Position numbers and translations under genes: made by a program. From Halalkalicoccus subterraneus (GTDB taxonomy: Archaea > Halobacteriota > Halobacteria > Halobacteriales > Halalkalicoccaceae), in the NCBI RefSeq assembly GCF_003697815.1, contig NZ_RDQG01000038.1, positions 1 to 46,360 of the forward strand: a DNA stretch of 46,360 bases. The letters run 5' to 3'. Under the pieces are notes generated by a model that had not been told where the DNA came from, did not search any database, and was given only the letters and a program-made list of their open reading frames with translations. Of this stretch, positions 17,261 to 25,440 are shown in pieces (within the stretch, counting starts at the first letter, position 1; each line of letters starts with the position of its first letter).

Positions 17261-19780
17261 CTATCGGACCTCGAAGCGCTCCGAGAGGCGGACGTCCCGC
17301 GAGGAACTCCCCACGAGCAGTTCGAACGCGCCGGGTTCGGTCACCCAGCACTCGGATTCGTCGTCGTAATAACCCAGATCGTCGGCGTCGATACAAAGCG
17401 TGACGGCACACCGTTGGCCGGGCTCCAGCGTGACCTTCTCGAAGGCCGTGAGCTCCTTCGGTGGACGCTCGACGCTCGCTTCCTCGTCGCGGACGTACGC
17501 TTGGACGACCTCCTTTCCCGCCCGATCGCCGGTGTTCTCGACGTGGAGAACGGCGTTCACCTGCCCGTTTCGCGGGAGACGACCGGGGTCGACCCGCAGG
17601 TCCGAGTATTCGAAGTCGGTGTACGACTCGCCGTGGCCGAACGGGAACAGCGGTTCGACCCCGCGCTCGTCGAAGTCCCGGTAGCCGACGAAGACGCCCT
17701 CGTCGTAGTACACCGTCCCGTCGACGCCGGGGTAGGCCTCGGCCTCGTTCGGGAGGGTCGCGACCGCGCCGGGCAGGTAGTCCTCGACCGCCGCGGCGAA
17801 CGTCACCGGCGTCTTCCCGGAGGGGTTCGCGTGGCCGAAGAGCAGGTCCGCCACCGCCCGGCCTCCCTCCTGACCGGGGAACCACAGTTGCATCAGTGCC
17901 GATACCGAGTCGAGCCAGGGCATCGCGACCGGCGACTCGGTGTTCAGGAGGACGACCGTTTCGTCGGTGGCCTCCGAGACGGCGTCGATGACGGCGTTCT
18001 GGTTGCCCGGCAGGTCGAAGCGCTTGCGGTCGTCGCCGTAGCTCGTATCGGTCTTCGCGAGGACGATCGCCACGTCGGCGCCAGCGGCGACCTCGGCGAC
18101 GGTCTCGATCGCGCTCGGGCGGGTCCACTCGACCGTCACGGGCGCGCCGCCGTCTGTCTCGACGCGGACCGTGTACTCCTCGCCAGCCGACAGCTCGGTT
18201 GCGACCCGCTCGGTCTTCGGCCCGGCGAAGCCGCCGCCGAGGTTCTCGACGACCGCCTCGCCGTTGACGAAGAGGGTGCTCTCGCCCTGACTCGTGAGAA
18301 CGAACTCGAAGGCCCCCGACTCCTCGGGGCTGATCCGTCCTTCCCACTCGACCGAGACGGCCTCGCCCTCGAAAGCGATCTCGGACACCGTCCCCGTTTC
18401 GCTCGGCGAACCCGAGCGGTCATCGCTCTCGTAGTATGCGTAGGTGAAGCCGTCATCGGGCGCCAGCGGCTCCGACTCGTCCGGCGAGGCGGTCGTCACC
18501 GACACGTCGGCGACGCTCTCGATTCCCTCGACGGGGCCGACGTCCCTGATGGGATCGACCGCGTCGCTTCCCCCGACGCTGTTGACGAACGTCTCGGGCT
18601 CCCAGCCGATCAGCGCGACCTCGTCGATCTCCGTGTCGTCGAGCGGGAGCACGCCGTCGTTTTCTAGGAGAACGGTCCCCTCCTTGGCGATCCGGTGTGC
18701 GAGGTCGAAGTGGTCGTCGGTCCCGCGTACCGGGTCGTGGCCGAGTCGCTCTCCCGAGAGCGCGCCGATCGCCTCCTGGGAGCGCAGCCCCCGCTCGACC
18801 ATCCCGTCGACGACCGACTCGTCGAGTTCGCCGTCTTCGACCGCTTCTTCGAGTGCCTCGCCGAAGTACTCCGCGGCGGGCATCTCGATATCGAGCCCGT
18901 TTTCCGCGGCGTCGACGGTGCTGTGGGTCCCGCCCCAGTCGGAGACGACGAACCCGTCGAAGCCCCACTCGCCCTTCAGCACGTCGCGCAGCAGTTTCCG
19001 GTTCTCGCTGCAGAACGTGCCGTTGACGCGGTTGTACGCGGGCATGACCGCACCGGCATCACCCTCCGTGACGGCCGCCTTGAACGGTGGATAGTAGATC
19101 TCCCGAAGCGCCCGCTCGCCGACGCTGACGTCGTGTTCGGAGGTCGAGAAGTAGTCCTCGACGCCGCCGGTTCCCCGCGTCTGGTTGTACGCGACGAAGT
19201 GTTTCAGCGTCGCGATCACGCCCTCGGACTGGACGGCGCCGGTGTAGGCCGCGGCCATCGCCGCAGCTAGGTGTGGATCTTCGCCGTAGGTCTCCCCGGC
19301 GCGGCTGTGAAGCGGCTGACGGAAGACGTCCATCGAGGGGGCGAGGTGAACCGAGACGCCACCGTCCTTGGTCTCGCGTGCGATCGCTGCCCCCTGTTCC
19401 AAGACCAGGTCGGGCTCGAACGTCGCGGCCGACGCGACGGGGTGGGGGAAGTCGGTCGTCGGCTCGCCGAGCGACGCACCCGGTGGACCGTCGGCCATCC
19501 CCATCCCCGATACGTCGAGGCGCTCGATTCCCTGCAGGTAGCCGGCGATCCCTTCCGGTCCGTCCTCGGCGCCGTGGGTTCGACTCACCTTCTCCGCGAG
19601 GGTCATCTCCTCGATCAGCGCCCCGATGTCTTCATCCGCGCTCGGTTCCGCGCCCGCGATACCGACCGATCCGAGGCCGAGCCCCAGAACCGAGGTCGCC
19701 CCGGCCGCGAGAAACGTCCGCCGCGACGGACCGGTCGACTCGCTCCTCTCCTCCCCACGTGACTTTCGTGTGTCAGTCAT
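17261..19780 (-). CDS. Tat-exported GH3 beta-glucosidase with PA14 domain
   Basis: An 839-residue extracellular glycoside hydrolase, probably a beta-glucosidase. The twin-arginine signal (SRRTFLAAGATSVLGLGLG) is at residues 20-40. The GH3 N-terminal barrel follows, with the nucleophile aspartate in FVVSDWGGTH (about residue 281). A PA14-like insert at about residues 425-550 (from FTYAYYES; FVNGEAVV) sits inside the GH3 C-terminal sandwich, and a fibronectin-III-like domain ends the protein. The order GH3N-GH3C-PA14-GH3C-Fn3 is well known among beta-glucosidases. The frame can start two codons earlier at a TTG; the ATG at 19780 is preferred. A 19-base palindrome precedes it. No sugar transporter lies beside it. 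Confidence 0.93.
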   Translation of the reverse strand: MTDTRKSRGEERSESTGPSRRTFLAAGATSVLGLGLGSVGIAGAEPSADEDIGALIEEMTLAEKVSRTHGAEDGPEGIAGYLQGIERLDVSGMGMADGPPGASLGEPTTDFPHPVASAATFEPDLVLEQGAAIARETKDGGVSVHLAPSMDVFRQPLHSRAGETYGEDPHLAAAMAAAYTGAVQSEGVIATLKHFVAYNQTRGTGGVEDYFSTSEHDVSVGERALREIYYPPFKAAVTEGDAGAVMPAYNRVNGTFCSENRKLLRDVLKGEWGFDGFVVSDWGGTHSTVDAAENGLDIEMPAAEYFGEALEEAVEDGELDESVVDGMVERGLRSQEAIGALSGERLGHDPVRGTDDHFDLAHRIAKEGTVLLENDGVLPLDDTEIDEVALIGWEPETFVNSVGGSDAVDPIRDVGPVEGIESVADVSVTTASPDESEPLAPDDGFTYAYYESDDRSGSPSETGTVSEIAFEGEAVSVEWEGRISPEESGAFEFVLTSQGESTLFVNGEAVVENLGGGFAGPKTERVATELSAGEEYTVRVETDGGAPVTVEWTRPSAIETVAEVAAGADVAIVLAKTDTSYGDDRKRFDLPGNQNAVIDAVSEATDETVVLLNTESPVAMPWLDSVSALMQLWFPGQEGGRAVADLLFGHANPSGKTPVTFAAAVEDYLPGAVATLPNEAEAYPGVDGTVYYDEGVFVGYRDFDERGVEPLFPFGHGESYTDFEYSDLRVDPGRLPRNGQVNAVLHVENTGDRAGKEVVQAYVRDEEASVERPPKELTAFEKVTLEPGQRCAVTLCIDADDLGYYDDESECWVTEPGAFELLVGSSSRDVRLSERFEVR

Positions 19781-19809
19781 TTTCAACCAACTACCCTTGA
19801 CTTATCCAT

Positions 19810-19878: not shown

Positions 19879-20652
19879 TCAGTAGATCAACTCGCCGTCG
19901 ACGAACTTCCGCACGCGATCGTCACGGGGGTTCTCGAAGACCCGGTCCGCGGAACCGATCTCGATGACCGCCCGGCCCAGCAGGACCGCGACGCGGTCCG
20001 CGATCCGCTCGGCCTGGTGCATGTCGTGGGTCGCGATGACGACGCCGATCCCCCGTTCGCTCGCCTTCCCGATCGCCTCTTCCAACACTGCCGTGTTGCG
20101 CGGATCGAGATCCGAGGTCGGCTCGTCGAGCAACAGCACGTCGGGATCGTACGCGAGCGCGCGGGCGAAGGCGACCCGCTGGGCTTCCCCGCCCGACAAC
20201 GACCGGGCGTTCTGGTCTTCCTTCCCATCGAGTCCGACAACCGAGAGTGCCTCCCGCGCCGTCTCGCTCGTCCCGTTCTCCCGCCCGACGAGATCCGCAG
20301 CACTCCGTTTGAGTCGTTCCGGCCAGGACTGGCGAACCCGCAGCCCGTATTCGGCGTTTCGCAACACCGGAGAATCGAACAGGCTGGCCTCCTGAAACAC
20401 CATCCCGACGTTTCGCCGCAGCGCCAGCCGCCGGTTCTCCGAGGCTTGCCAGACGTCGGTCTCCTCGTAGCTGACCGTCCCCTCGTCGGGACGCTCGAAC
20501 AGCGCGAGCAGGCGAAGCAGGGTCGACTTTCCGACGCCGGAGGGACCGATGATCGCGAGGACTTCGCCGCTGTCGACGGACAGCGAGACGTCATCGAACA
20601 CCGGCTCGTCGTAGGCGTGCCGGAGTCCATCGACCGACAGGACGTCGGTCAT
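19879..20652 (-). CDS. tupC: Tungstate ABC transporter, ATP-binding subunit
   Basis: A 257-residue ABC ATPase on the cytoplasmic face of the membrane. Walker A is GPSGVGKST, the signature is LSGGEAQR, Walker B is [12 protein letters not shown], and the switch histidine lies in [15 protein letters not shown]. The family resembles the TupC/ModC import ATPases, and context decides the substrate: it is the third gene after a TupA-like binding protein and its permease. Its ATG overlaps the permease stop by four bases. A C-terminal TOBE domain is absent. Confidence 0.9.
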
Positions 20653-21359
20653 CGCGTCCGCCCACCCCCACCGAGGCGCCCGACGATCGCGTTGACCAGC
20701 AAGACGATCGAGACGAGGATCGCCCCGAGGAACATCGCGGTCTCGTAGCGGCCCTGCCGGGCCTCCAGTGTGATCGCCGTCGTGATGTTGCGGGTGTAGG
20801 CCTCACCGTCGGCGTAGGCGATGTTGCCCCCGACGATCAACACCGAGCCCACCTCACTGATCGCCCGACCGAACCCCGCGAGGATCGCGGTCGCGATCCC
20901 GAAGCGCGCCTCCTTGATCACGACGAGCGCGACGTCGAGTCGGGTGCCACCCATCGCGTAGGCGGCGTCCCGAACCGACTGATCGATCCCCGTAACCGCC
21001 GCGAGGCTCACACCGGTGATCACCGGCGCGGCCAACACGAACTGGGACATGATCATCGCCTGTGGGGTGAACACGAGGTCCAGAAAGCCCAACGGCCCCT
21101 GGTTCGACACCGCAAACAGCACGACGAGCCCGACGACGACGCTCGGAAAGCCCATTCCCGTGTTGATGATCGCAGTCACGAGCCCCTTTCCGGGGAAGTC
21201 CTTGAACCCCACGAAAAGCGCGACGGGCAGGCTCACGAGCGTCGAGAGCACGACGGCGGTCACGCTCACGTACAGGGAAACGCGAACGATGCTCTTGACG
21301 TAGTTGCTCTCGAAGGGCATCCCGTCCAGGACCGCCAGTGCCGTCTCGAGGGCCATCAC
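20649..21359 (-). CDS. tupB: Tungstate ABC transporter, permease subunit
   Basis: A 236-residue permease with about five or six membrane segments and a binding-protein-dependent transport inner-membrane domain. The ATPase-coupling loop is [41 protein letters not shown] in character (EAA-like, with a conserved AISEVG end). The composition is typical of TupB rather than ModB in the short N-terminus and one domain. A double methionine leaves the start uncertain by one codon. It overlaps both neighbours by four bases. Confidence 0.9.
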
Positions 21360-22345
21360 TCGTCCGTGGCGTTGTCCTCGGTGGCGTTACCTCCGTTCTC
21401 GCCGTCGGGCTGCCAGTCCTCGGGGACGTACTGCTGGAAGTTCGGGTCCTCCGAGAGCGCCTGCGGGAAGAACAGCTGCTCGCCGTCAAGTTCGTACTCC
21501 TCGATGACCTGTTGGCCCTCCTGGCTCGTCAGAAAGCCGATGTAGGACATCGCGAGCTGGTAGTTGACGTCCTCGTGGACCGCGGGGTTGATCGCGAGCA
21601 CCCCGTAGGGGTTCGCGAGGATCTCCGGGCCGCCCTCGACGGGCCCCTGGACGAGGATCTCCAGTTCCACTTCGTCCTGCTGGGAGATGAACGTCCCCCG
21701 ATCCGAGAGGGTGTACCCGCCCTGCTGGCTCGCCTGGTTGAGCGTATCGCCCATTCCCTGACCGGTTTCGAGGTACCACTCGCCGCCGGGTTCGACGCCC
21801 GCTTCCTCCCAGATCTGCAACTCGGCCGTGTTGGTTCCCGAATCGTCGCCGCGGGAGGCGAACAGCGACTCGTTCTCGGCGATCGCCTGAAACGCTCCGA
21901 GCGCGTCCTCGCTACCCCCGATCCCGGCGGGGTCGTCGCTCGGCCCAACGATCACGAAGTCGTTGAACATCAGGTCCCGGCGGTTGATCCCATAGCCGTT
22001 CTGCATGAACTCGTCCTCCTGGCTCCGGGCGTGGACCATCACGACGTCACAGTCGCCGGCCCGTGCGGTTTCGAGGGCCTGACCCGTCCCTTGGGAGATC
22101 GCCTGGACCGGCGTGCCGAAGTTCTCCTCGAAGGCGGCGTTGACTTCGTCCAAGAGACCGGTGTCGTAGGTGCTGGTCGTCGTCGCGAGCACCAGTTCCT
22201 GCCCGGTGATCGAGCCGCCGGAACTGCTGTTGCTCTCGTTGCCGCTGCCATTCTCCCCGCCCGAAAACAACCCCGTACAGCCCGCCAGTCCGGCGGCCGC
22301 TCCCCCGCCGGCCAGCGTCAGGAAATCGCGCCGTTGTATCGCCAT
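21356..22345 (-). CDS. tupA: Tungstate-binding lipoprotein
   Basis: A 329-residue extracellular binding protein. The signal has a twin arginine ([20 protein letters not shown]) with a lipobox whose cysteine is residue 22, so it is Tat-exported and lipid-anchored, and a serine/asparagine-rich linker follows. The mature domain opens [19 protein letters not shown], whose TTTS motif is characteristic of tungstate-binding Tup[23 protein letters not shown] and [13 protein letters not shown] are also TupA-like. It is the first gene of tupABC, and a CTAAGTAG box lies 28 bases before the ATG. It probably feeds a tungsto- or molybdo-pterin enzyme such as the one at 29972. Confidence 0.93.
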
Positions 22346-22466: not shown

Positions 22467-24119
22467 TCAGACCGCGTCAGGACCGCGGTTGCCGGTACGC
22501 ACCTGCAGGGCGTCCTCGACGGGCATGACGAAGATCTTGCCGTCACCGGGCTCGCCGGTGTTGGCGCCCTCGCGGATCGCGTCGACGACCTCGTCAATCG
22601 GAATATCCGCGATGACACACTCGACTTTCACCTTCTGGTGGAGGTCGACGGTGTACTCCTCGCCACGCCATTGGCCCTTCTTCGCGGGCTGGCTGCCGCG
22701 TCCCGAGACGTTGGTGACCGTCAGCGAGGGTGCGCCGACGTTCGCGAGTTCGCGTTTGACATCACCGAGCCGGTCGGGGCGGATGATCGCGGTGATCATC
22801 TTGATTCCCGAGTCGGAGACGCCGCCGTCAGTTCGGACGATCTCGGGGCCGCCGTCGGTGGCGACGTCGGGGCCGCCGAACTCGGGGTAGGTGTCGACGC
22901 CGTGCTCGCTGACGTCGAGGCCGTCACGTTCGTGGCCGGGCGTAACGCGTGCCTGACCGAGCGCCTTGAGCGCACCCCAGATCAGTGCGGTCGCGCCGAC
23001 CGTCCAAGCCGTGATCACGACGACGCCGGCGACCTGCGCGAACACCGAAGGTGCTTCGCCGGGGATCGCGACGAACGGGATCGCGAGCATGCCGATGATG
23101 CCCGCGGAACCGTGGACGGGGAAGACCGCACAGACGTCGTCGATCTTCAGGGTCCGCTCGACGAACCGGAACACGAGCGGGAGCTGCACGCCGGCGATGA
23201 ACGCGACCAGCGCCGCGCCCCACCAGGTGACGATGTCCGCGATGCCGGTCACGGCGACCAGGCCCGCGAGCAGGCCGTTCGCGACGTAAAGCGTGTCGAC
23301 TTTCCCGGTGAGACCCAGCGAGATCGCGCCCGCTCCGATGGCGCCGAACGCCATTCCGAGCGTCGTCGCGAGCGCGACCCGCCCGACGTACTCGAAGGCA
23401 CCGAGTGCGAGTTCGCCGCCCTCGGCGGTGAAGACGGTCGCGGCGGTGCCGACGTTGAAACCGTACCAGCCGAAGGCCAGTACCAGAGTGCCAAGCACCG
23501 CGAACGTCATCGAGTGACCGGGGATGACGTTGACGGTGCCGTCGGCGTTGTAGCGGTCCATCCGCGGGCCGAGGATCCAGGCGGCCGTCAGCCCGGCGAT
23601 CCCGCCGACCGCGTGGACGATCATGCCGCCCGCGAAGTCGTGGAACCCGAGCACTGAGAGGTAGCCGCCGGCCCACGTCAGGCCGGTCACGACGGGATAG
23701 ATCACGGCCGCGAGCGCGACGGTGTAGGTGACGTACGCGCGGAGTTTCGCGCGACCCGCGACGGCTCCCGAAACGATCGTCGCCGCGGTCATCGCGAAGA
23801 CCGCGCCGAACAACCAGTCGACCCACGCCGTCGAGTCGCCGCCGATCGTGCCGGCGTAGGCGTCGGCGAGCGTAAACGAGCCGCCGCTGGTGATCGCGCC
23901 GACGATCGTGCTGATCGCCGCCCCGACGAAGAAGAACATCACGACGCCGACCGCCCAGGTCAGCAGGTTCTTCGTCAGCTGGTTCGCGACGTTCTTCGAG
24001 CGCACCTGTCCGGCCTCCAGCATCGCGAAGCCGGCATGCATGAAGAAGATGAGGAACGTTACCACGAGTACCCACATCATGTTGACGCCCTCCGCGAGCA
24101 CCGACGGATCTACCTGCAT
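22467..24119 (-). CDS. Ammonium transporter fused to a P-II (GlnK-like) domain
   Basis: A 550-residue fusion. Residues 1-405 are an Amt channel with about eleven membrane segments; the twin pore histidines lie in [16 protein letters not shown] and [15 protein letters not shown] roughly 30-residue linker leads to a complete P-II domain at about 436-550: [17 protein letters not shown], the T-loop [19 protein letters not shown] with the tyrosine matching the uridylylation site (about residue 489), and the nucleotide-binding [15 protein letters not shown] proteins normally are separate and plug Amt from the cytosol; here sensor and channel are one chain. A GAGGTG ribosome-binding site precedes the ATG. 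No frameshift or stop separates the parts. Confidence 0.93.
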
Positions 24120-24453: not shown

Positions 24454-25440
24454 TCAGCCGGGCAGATCACGAGCGACCTGCTCGGCAAAATACGTCAGGA
24501 TCAGATCCGCACCCGCGCGCTTGATCGAGAGCAGCGACTCGTGTGCCACCTCCTCCAGGTCGAGCCATCCCTGCTCGCTCGCGGCGTGGAGCATCGCGTA
24601 CTCCCCGCTGACGTTGTAAGCGGCCACCGGCAGCTCGGTGGTCTCCCGGACGTCCCGAACGATGTCGAGATAGGGCAGCGCGGGCTTGACCATCAGGGCG
24701 TCGGCGCCCTGTTCGGCGTCGAGGCGGGCCTCCCGAATCGCTTCGCGTCTGTTGGCGGGGTCCATCTGGTAGTGTCTGCGATTCCCGAAACTGGGCGCGC
24801 CGTCGGCGGCATCTCTGAAGGGCCCGTAGAAGGCCGACTCGTATTTGACGGCGTAGCTCATGATCGGCACCTCGGTGAAGTCATCGCGATCCAGCGCGTC
24901 ACGAATGGTTGCGACCATGCCGTCCATCATCCCGCTGGGCGCGATCATGTCCGCGCCCGCCTCCGCCTGCGAGAGCGCCGTGCGCTCGATCAGTTCGAGG
25001 GTCGCGTCGTTGTCGACGGTCATGTGGGGGTCTTCCTCCGCTCCCTCCTCGATGATTCCACAGTGCCCGTGACTGGTGTACTCACAGAAACAGAGATCGG
25101 CGATGACGTAGGCGTCGGTCTCCTCGGAGATCTTTCGGAGGGCACGCTGGACGACGCCCTCGTCGGCCCACGCCCGAGTCCCTCGATCGTCCTTTTCCTC
25201 CGGGATTCCAAAGAGCATCACGGCCTCGACGCCGGTCTCCCGGACCTCCCGGACCCGCTCCGTGATCCCCTCGACGGGCACGCGCTCGTGGCCGGGCATC
25301 GACTCGATGGGGACGCGCTCGTCGGTCGTGGCGTCGACGAAGACCGGCGCGATCAGATCGCTGGGAGAGAGCGACGTCTCGCTGACCAGCGGGCGCACGC
25401 CGTCGCTTCGCAGGCGGCGCGGACGCTTCGTGATGTCCAT
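24454..25440 (-). CDS. hemB: Delta-aminolevulinic acid dehydratase (porphobilinogen synthase)
   Basis: A 328-residue enzyme joining two 5-aminolevulinates into porphobilinogen. The zinc cysteines are in ADLCFCEYTSHGHCG and the two Schiff-base lysines in SYAVKYESAFYGPFR and ALMVKPALPYLDI, so all catalytic parts are visible; this is the zinc-type enzyme. Length and start (MDITKRPRRLRSDG) are standard. It lies apart from the hemCD and hemL groups and is divergent from the TIGR00725 gene. Confidence 0.97.
   Translation of the reverse strand: MDITKRPRRLRSDGVRPLVSETSLSPSDLIAPVFVDATTDERVPIESMPGHERVPVEGITERVREVRETGVEAVMLFGIPEEKDDRGTRAWADEGVVQRALRKISEETDAYVIADLCFCEYTSHGHCGIIEEGAEEDPHMTVDNDATLELIERTALSQAEAGADMIAPSGMMDGMVATIRDALDRDDFTEVPIMSYAVKYESAFYGPFRDAADGAPSFGNRRHYQMDPANRREAIREARLDAEQGADALMVKPALPYLDIVRDVRETTELPVAAYNVSGEYAMLHAASEQGWLDLEEVAHESLLSIKRAGADLILTYFAEQVARDLPG

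Follow-up and report, generated by a model that had tools for sequence, protein, structure and literature searches.

P-II proteins of the GlnK type regulate ammonium channels of the Amt family. From the work on AmtB-GlnK, Arg47 is presumably the T-loop residue that plugs the Amt, and we take Gln39, Lys58, the B-loop and Arg103 to be the residues that hold the ligands ATP and 2-oxoglutarate. Uridylylation of Tyr51 by GlnD is a proteobacterial trait and is not common to all P-II proteins. Other Amt proteins carry a module of a different kind: Sd-Amt1 (8qj3) is assumed here to have a C-terminal output domain. Among the haloarchaea, free GlnK was found by co-immunoprecipitation to bind AmtB1 after an ammonium shock in Haloferax mediterranei, as described in an extract of PMC3831643. 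The extract of PMC5764959 cites a 2009 review of the Amt/Rh family for Amt modules joined with other domains, and places an ammonium site of Ks-Amt5 at Q24, E31, N47, D50, T51, T109 and T112, with F27, Y30 and F34 as blockers. Among the titles and opening lines of abstracts listed by searches of the open-access literature, none describes a fusion of Amt with P-II. This architecture is nonetheless common in public genomes, and the present analysis deals with one example, from the haloarchaeon Halalkalicoccus subterraneus.

A single gene for channel and P-II protein

The window, meaning the whole stretch of 46,360 nucleotides that was analysed, contains one uninterrupted reading frame on its minus strand that runs from ATG to TGA and encodes 550 amino acids. 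Its parts are as follows.

22467..24119, minus strand: amt-glnK fusion gene, 550 amino acids, stop codon included (open reading frame and Pfam)
22887..24077, minus strand: Amt ammonium channel domain, residues 15-411 (Pfam)
22887..22922, minus strand: motif of the Amt cytosolic C-terminal region, residues 400-411, 12 residues (sequence)
22806..22886, minus strand: Gly/Asp-rich linker, residues 412-438, 27 residues (sequence comparison)
22470..22805, minus strand: P-II (GlnK) domain, residues 439-550 (Pfam)
22641..22697, minus strand: P-II T-loop, residues 475-493, with Q477 (Gln39), R485 (Arg47, the presumed pore plug) and Y489 (Tyr51)
22536..22559, minus strand: P-II B-loop nucleotide-binding stretch TGEPGDGK, residues 521-528 (residue comparison)

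An earlier note on this DNA had described a full Amt and a full P-II in one chain, and both Pfam domains are indeed complete. Ammonium_transp (PF00909) matches residues 15-411 over positions 1-399 of its 399-position profile (E 3.8e-90, 302.9 bits against a cut-off of 23.2), and P-II (PF00543) matches residues 440-543 over positions 2-101 of 102 (E 1.8e-26, 92.9 bits against a cut-off of 25). The NCBIfam model TIGR00836 scores the fused protein at 317.4 bits, under its stricter cut-off of 343.3. The best solved relative of the P-II part in a sequence search is 4ozj. The linker, expected to be acidic and of about 30 residues, has six Asp or Glu residues and one Arg, for a net charge of -5, and is rich in glycine with "TDGG" units; the T-loop tyrosine was correctly placed at residue 489, the counterpart of GlnK Tyr51. 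The predicted one-to-one ratio of Amt to P-II subunits follows from the single chain.

A single-chain AlphaFold2 model built from 54 fused sequences has a mean pLDDT of 77.9 and shows the expected Amt helices and P-II strands. Confidence is low at residues 407-436 (the linker) and 470-494 (the T-loop), with linker and T-loop pLDDT under 50, and as a model of one chain it says nothing on contact between the domains. The best Foldseek matches of the model are Amt structures, among them, through the Amt part, the AmtB-GlnK complexes 2nuu and 2ns1.

A genome-wide search of the host (3.61 Mb, 95.27% complete) gives a single match each for P-II and Amt, and both are the fusion gene; the check for a free glnK that the earlier note had proposed thus found none. 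The neighbouring genes lie on the same strand. Directly downstream is a three-gene ABC importer (19879-22345, minus strand), with a binding protein and a permease similar to the tungstate proteins TupA and TupB at scores under the NCBIfam equivalog cut-offs; further on is a glycoside hydrolase of family 3 whose C-terminal catalytic region encloses a PA14 domain (17261-19786, minus strand). The upstream neighbour (24454-25440, minus strand) is the porphobilinogen synthase gene hemB (PF00490, NF006762).

Distribution of the fusion

Three congeners (G003, G004 and G005) match the fusion over its full length at 88-92% identity, and a fourth (G002) likewise carries a fusion, whose linker is longer. 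Of the named relatives, Halalkalicoccus paucihalophilus is the nearest, at 91% identity over the full length. Matches to the window protein were present in 46 of the 59 genomes of a first search that included the host genome, and 80 haloarchaeal loci show 66-91% identity to the query in the best segment. The spread was then counted in 194 genomes of the order with a completeness of 95% or more, the host again included. P-II was found in 182 of these, the same 182 that match the window protein, and the remaining 12 of the 194 searched gave no P-II match. A fusion is present in 123 of the 182 genomes, free P-II alone in 57, and only degraded pieces in two; these states were read from open frames and matches together with open-frame checks of 80 regions, in tables compiled by hand. 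The fused kind is the sole P-II in 112 of the 182, the host among them (one genome, G092, was set aside in this count since its additional matches are fragments located on other contigs), and it occurs together with a free P-II in 10; second P-II matches under the Pfam cut-off in G145, G155 and G194 were left uncounted. The earlier note could not judge the spread of this domain order in haloarchaea; by these counts the fusion proves to be the commoner state. It is thus ordinary in haloarchaea, and the window protein is a plain member of the haloarchaeal Amt-P-II group.

Several genomes depart from the simple pattern. The two with degraded pieces retain just broken amt-P-II fragments (G038, C1:118557-120111; G062, C16:25011-25504) in otherwise complete genomes. 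One locus (L180, in G132) has two fused Amt-P-II genes side by side that belong to different Amt clades, and two genomes (G122 and G151) have two P-II matches each, in long open frames.

The search outside the order covered 246 genomes of the phylum, with a match counted as co-aligned when it reached residue 544 or beyond of the query. All 40 of the amt-glnK places among the matches listed carry at least one stop inside, and three long Amt frames (L218-L220) showed no P-II in their translations, split matches being considered. Matches from a plasmid collection include single coding sequences of the Amt-P-II kind in the Bacillota, with both Pfam domains over cut-off, in Monoglobus pectinilyticus (36% identity to the query), Enterococcus raffinosus (33%) and Ruminococcus albus (32%); all three are annotated merely as "ammonium transporter". 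A Paenibacillus candidate for a fourth was ruled out, as it consists of two open reading frames. Because the archaea outside the order are unfused among the matches listed, the Bacillota fusions most likely had a separate origin.

Origin of the linker and history of fusion and fission

The comparison of fused and free genes drew on 198 distinct amt-P-II pairs: 125 fused ones and 73 free ones, the latter from haloarchaea (67) and outgroups (6). Linkers in the fused proteins range from 20 to 71 residues with a median of 33 and are in frame in all 125, and the tails of free haloarchaeal Amt proteins have a median of 32 residues. Linkers and free tails are nearly equal in composition, with Asp/Glu fractions of 0.24 and 0.25 and a Gly fraction of 0.21 in both, and every one of the 125 linkers and the 67 free tails has PEF at its beginning and DG[GS] inside. 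A distal N-x-G-x occurs in 62 of the 125 linkers and in 21 of the 67 N-terminal extensions of free GlnK. Since the linkers share motifs and composition with the free Amt tails and GlnK N-termini, they would most simply be the old Amt tail joined to the old GlnK N-terminus by removal of a stop and a start. In several free pairs (G120, G182, L106, L164 and L178), amt and glnK share a reading frame that a stop interrupts between the two genes.

Such pairs bear on a trivial explanation, an error of sequencing, as the earlier note had raised, or of assembly, that would mask a stop codon and a fresh start in the linker. In its favour, the neighbouring genes of G120, G182, L106 and L178 are unfused and one in-frame stop separates amt from glnK. 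The same join is nevertheless present in all four congeners and, at varied linker lengths but always in frame, in the 125 distinct haloarchaeal fusions, which makes an error vanishingly improbable; the lost-stop candidate was rejected. The earlier note had also held that a free-standing glnK at this locus in near relatives would speak against the fusion. Free genes are present there in other genera, but they reflect recurrent fusion and fission and not an artefact.

The history was traced on a tree of 145 representatives, 90 fused and 55 free. Only 15 changes between the fused and free states are needed, at least 9 of them on well-supported branches, versus 44 with shuffled labels; trees of the single domains give 16 changes (Amt alone) and 12 (P-II alone). 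This was a quick tree with long outgroup branches, so the exact numbers are soft and the repeated change is firm. Under a two-rate model with free outgroups at the root, the reconstruction gives a free haloarchaeal ancestor (P fused 0.005) and a fused one for the main Amt clade, with P 1.000 when two long basal rows are left out and 0.757 with them included. A model that forbids fission is far worse (lnL -75.2 vs -49.7). Most members of a second Amt clade (about 50-55% identical) are free, and its fused proteins fall on two distinct branches. Because the tree interleaves the two, fused and free forms are, on this evidence, states that interchange repeatedly and replace each other within one gene family.

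Conservation of channel and P-II residues

Alignment to solved structures identifies in the Amt part the twin histidines H169/H336, the phenylalanine gate F108/F221, D161 and W149/T225. None of H169, H336, F108 and D161 varies among 90 fused and 50 free haloarchaeal representatives, and F221 is invariant in alignment A1 (54 rows), as are G400, L401, D402, E405, H406, G407, T410 and Y411 of the C-terminal motif. The selectivity-filter serine is Thr225 in the query.

The P-II part is similarly well preserved. Among the haloarchaeal pairs, Arg47 and Lys58 are each present in 125 of 125 fused and 67 of 67 free proteins and Gln39 in 124 of 125 and 66 of 67, and Gly87, Asp88, Gly89 and Lys90 of the B-loop and Arg103 occur in all. 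Position 101 is Gln, not Arg, in 125 of 125 fused and 66 of 67 free proteins, the query included. Gln at 101 and Thr225, either of which may affect function, are points against the main reading given below.

Of the 125 fused proteins, 104 have Tyr at position 51 and 21 have Phe, and all 67 free haloarchaeal ones have Tyr. The Phe occurs in Halorubrum, Halobellus and genus g6 (e.g. L058, L060, L062 and L085), making tyrosine modification impossible in the Halorubrum and Halobellus fusions; the tree counts four changes at this site, including Met in two outgroup rows. A profile search of the host genome detected no GlnD domain (PF08335), and the control search had matches in E. coli, Caulobacter and C. 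glutamicum and none in Haloferax volcanii. The absence of a detected GlnD and the Phe-bearing fusions together suggest that Tyr489 is probably not a working modification site. Uridylylation of GlnK is cited for Haloferax mediterranei in the extract of PMC3831643.

A general relaxation of constraint on P-II after fusion was considered and rejected, as the fused and free proteins of clade A have nearly the same mean site entropy (0.622 and 0.599, respectively). Single sites differ, most of all position 82 (residue 520 of the fused protein), which is His in 5 of 90 fused versus 32 of 50 free representatives, and nine independent pairs show about 6 changes in one direction and 0.1 in the other (median sign-test p 0.03), a lead only, as the site was chosen post hoc from all 112. 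The difference suggests that the constraint on fused P-II is not wholly identical to that on the free protein. The same independent-pair test did not reach 0.05 at P-II sites 100, 86, 72, 5, 52 and 7.

A model for the tethered pair

What was observed directly (the fusion itself, its spread, the conserved plug, ligand and channel residues, and a linker matching pre-existing tails) is well explained if the protein is an ordinary assimilatory ammonium channel that carries its own GlnK-type P-II on its C-terminus, with the classical plug tethered in cis. We regard this as quite probable, and the best reading is that no new mechanism is needed for the fusion. By analogy with AmtB-GlnK, from which we infer the trimer geometry, the gating in cis and the response to ligands, three chains would assemble into the Amt trimer, with a trimer of their P-II domains beneath it. 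When 2-oxoglutarate is low because ammonium is plentiful, the T-loops would plug each of the three pores with Arg485 (GlnK Arg47) and stop uptake. With ATP and 2-oxoglutarate bound, the T-loops would refold and the P-II trimer would lift off, while staying on a leash of about 27-30 residues. Such a tether may alter the gating of the channel. Because fused and free forms swap between close relatives, the tether appears compatible with normal function, and the frequency of fission implies that it is not required for it.

A different role would follow if the Amt part were an ammonium receptor like Ks-Amt5, with P-II as its output module. The structures of Ks-Amt5 (6eu6) and Sd-Amt1 (8qj3) are the best solved relatives by sequence, ahead of AmtB and Af-Amt1, and in the fold comparison they take first place and, together with 8qj4, the third and fourth places; Ks-Amt5 E31, N47 and T109 also have identical counterparts in the query (E35, N51 and T114). 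The decisive positions differ, however: D50, the second acidic residue of the ammonium site, and T51 are replaced by Thr54 and Trp55, two of the three bulky pore blockers are absent (Tyr30 is Leu34 and Phe34 is Gln38), and the P-II domain retains a plug residue for which a mere output domain would have no need. A receptor-type Amt was rejected on these replacements and is very improbable. Somewhat less remote, though still improbable, is a role in which the tethered P-II mainly holds glutamine synthetase at the mouth of the channel, where incoming ammonium would be assimilated on the spot. The fusion is so often the sole P-II (112 of 182 genomes), the host has one Gln-synt_C gene, and the extract of PMC3831643 reports activation of glutamine synthetase by free GlnK in vitro for Haloferax mediterranei. 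Against such an anchor stands the account in the extract of PMC11957540, in which no influence of Methanosarcina mazei GlnK1 on the synthetase could be detected in the conditions tested and direct control of the enzyme by 2-oxoglutarate is reported for methanoarchaea and haloarchaea.

The gene might also yield a free, soluble P-II, through an internal start or proteolysis of the linker. An ATG does stand at the third P-II codon in 104 of the 125 fused genes, preceded by Shine-Dalgarno-like (SD-like) motifs in 35 of the 125 (28%) versus 19% of other linker windows, and one genome (G176) has a tandem free P-II adjoining the fusion. The last 20 linker codons, on the other hand, are without ATG, GTG or TTG in 104 of the 125 genes and contain an ATG in just 6; 21 of the 125 have no start codon in P-II codons 1-3, and initiation at these codons would trim the first strand of the domain. 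With no start conserved in the linker, the internal start was rejected, and a free product by either route is unlikely.

The extra P-II frames merit separate description. In G176 (L198, 1281-1919, minus strand), the second frame follows immediately after the fusion and repeats its PNDGELKM join, and it looks like a tandem copy of the 3' end of the fused gene. At the corresponding position in another genome (G163, L179) there are two additional P-II frames.

Possible consequences for soluble P-II signalling

With the fusion as the only P-II found in it, the host should have no soluble P-II left to reach glutamine synthetase, and P-II signalling to soluble targets would take place at the membrane or be lost. 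The reported direct control of the synthetase by 2-oxoglutarate would make such a loss bearable. We tentatively suggest, at somewhat less than even probability, that in most haloarchaea the sole P-II is bound to the channel and is no longer a soluble messenger, that it either gates the channel alone or commands the synthetase from the membrane, and that fission and refusion amount to the regain and loss of soluble signalling. If this is true, sites such as His82 should track the state of soluble P-II signalling. The alternation of fused and free forms between close relatives, often without any other P-II, offers a natural experiment on the purpose of soluble P-II, in which fused-only and free-only haloarchaea can be compared for control of glutamine synthetase and for the response to ammonium shock. 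The fusion also supplies structural studies with a ready-made one-to-one version of a channel-plug complex whose parts normally separate.

Comparison with known systems

The AmtB-GlnK pairs (E. coli 2nuu/2ns1; Haloferax mediterranei AmtB1 with GlnK1/2) share with the query the same families, Arg47 and the ligand residues, and the Amt C-terminal motif. The query differs from them in being one chain, in a genome with no free P-II and no GlnD detected. Other haloarchaeal fusions (Halalkalicoccus paucihalophilus, Natrinema, Halorubrum and Haladaptatus) have the same domain order and the same DGG-type linker, and differ among themselves in linker length (20-71) and in the Phe for Tyr51 of Halorubrum and Halobellus. 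The Bacillota coding sequences have the query's domain order at 32-36% identity. The histidine kinase Ks-Amt5 (6eu6) and Sd-Amt1 (8qj3) likewise combine an Amt trimer with a C-terminal cytosolic module. These two are receptors, whereas the haloarchaeal protein is without key residues of the receptor site and its module is of the kind that serves as the classical channel plug.
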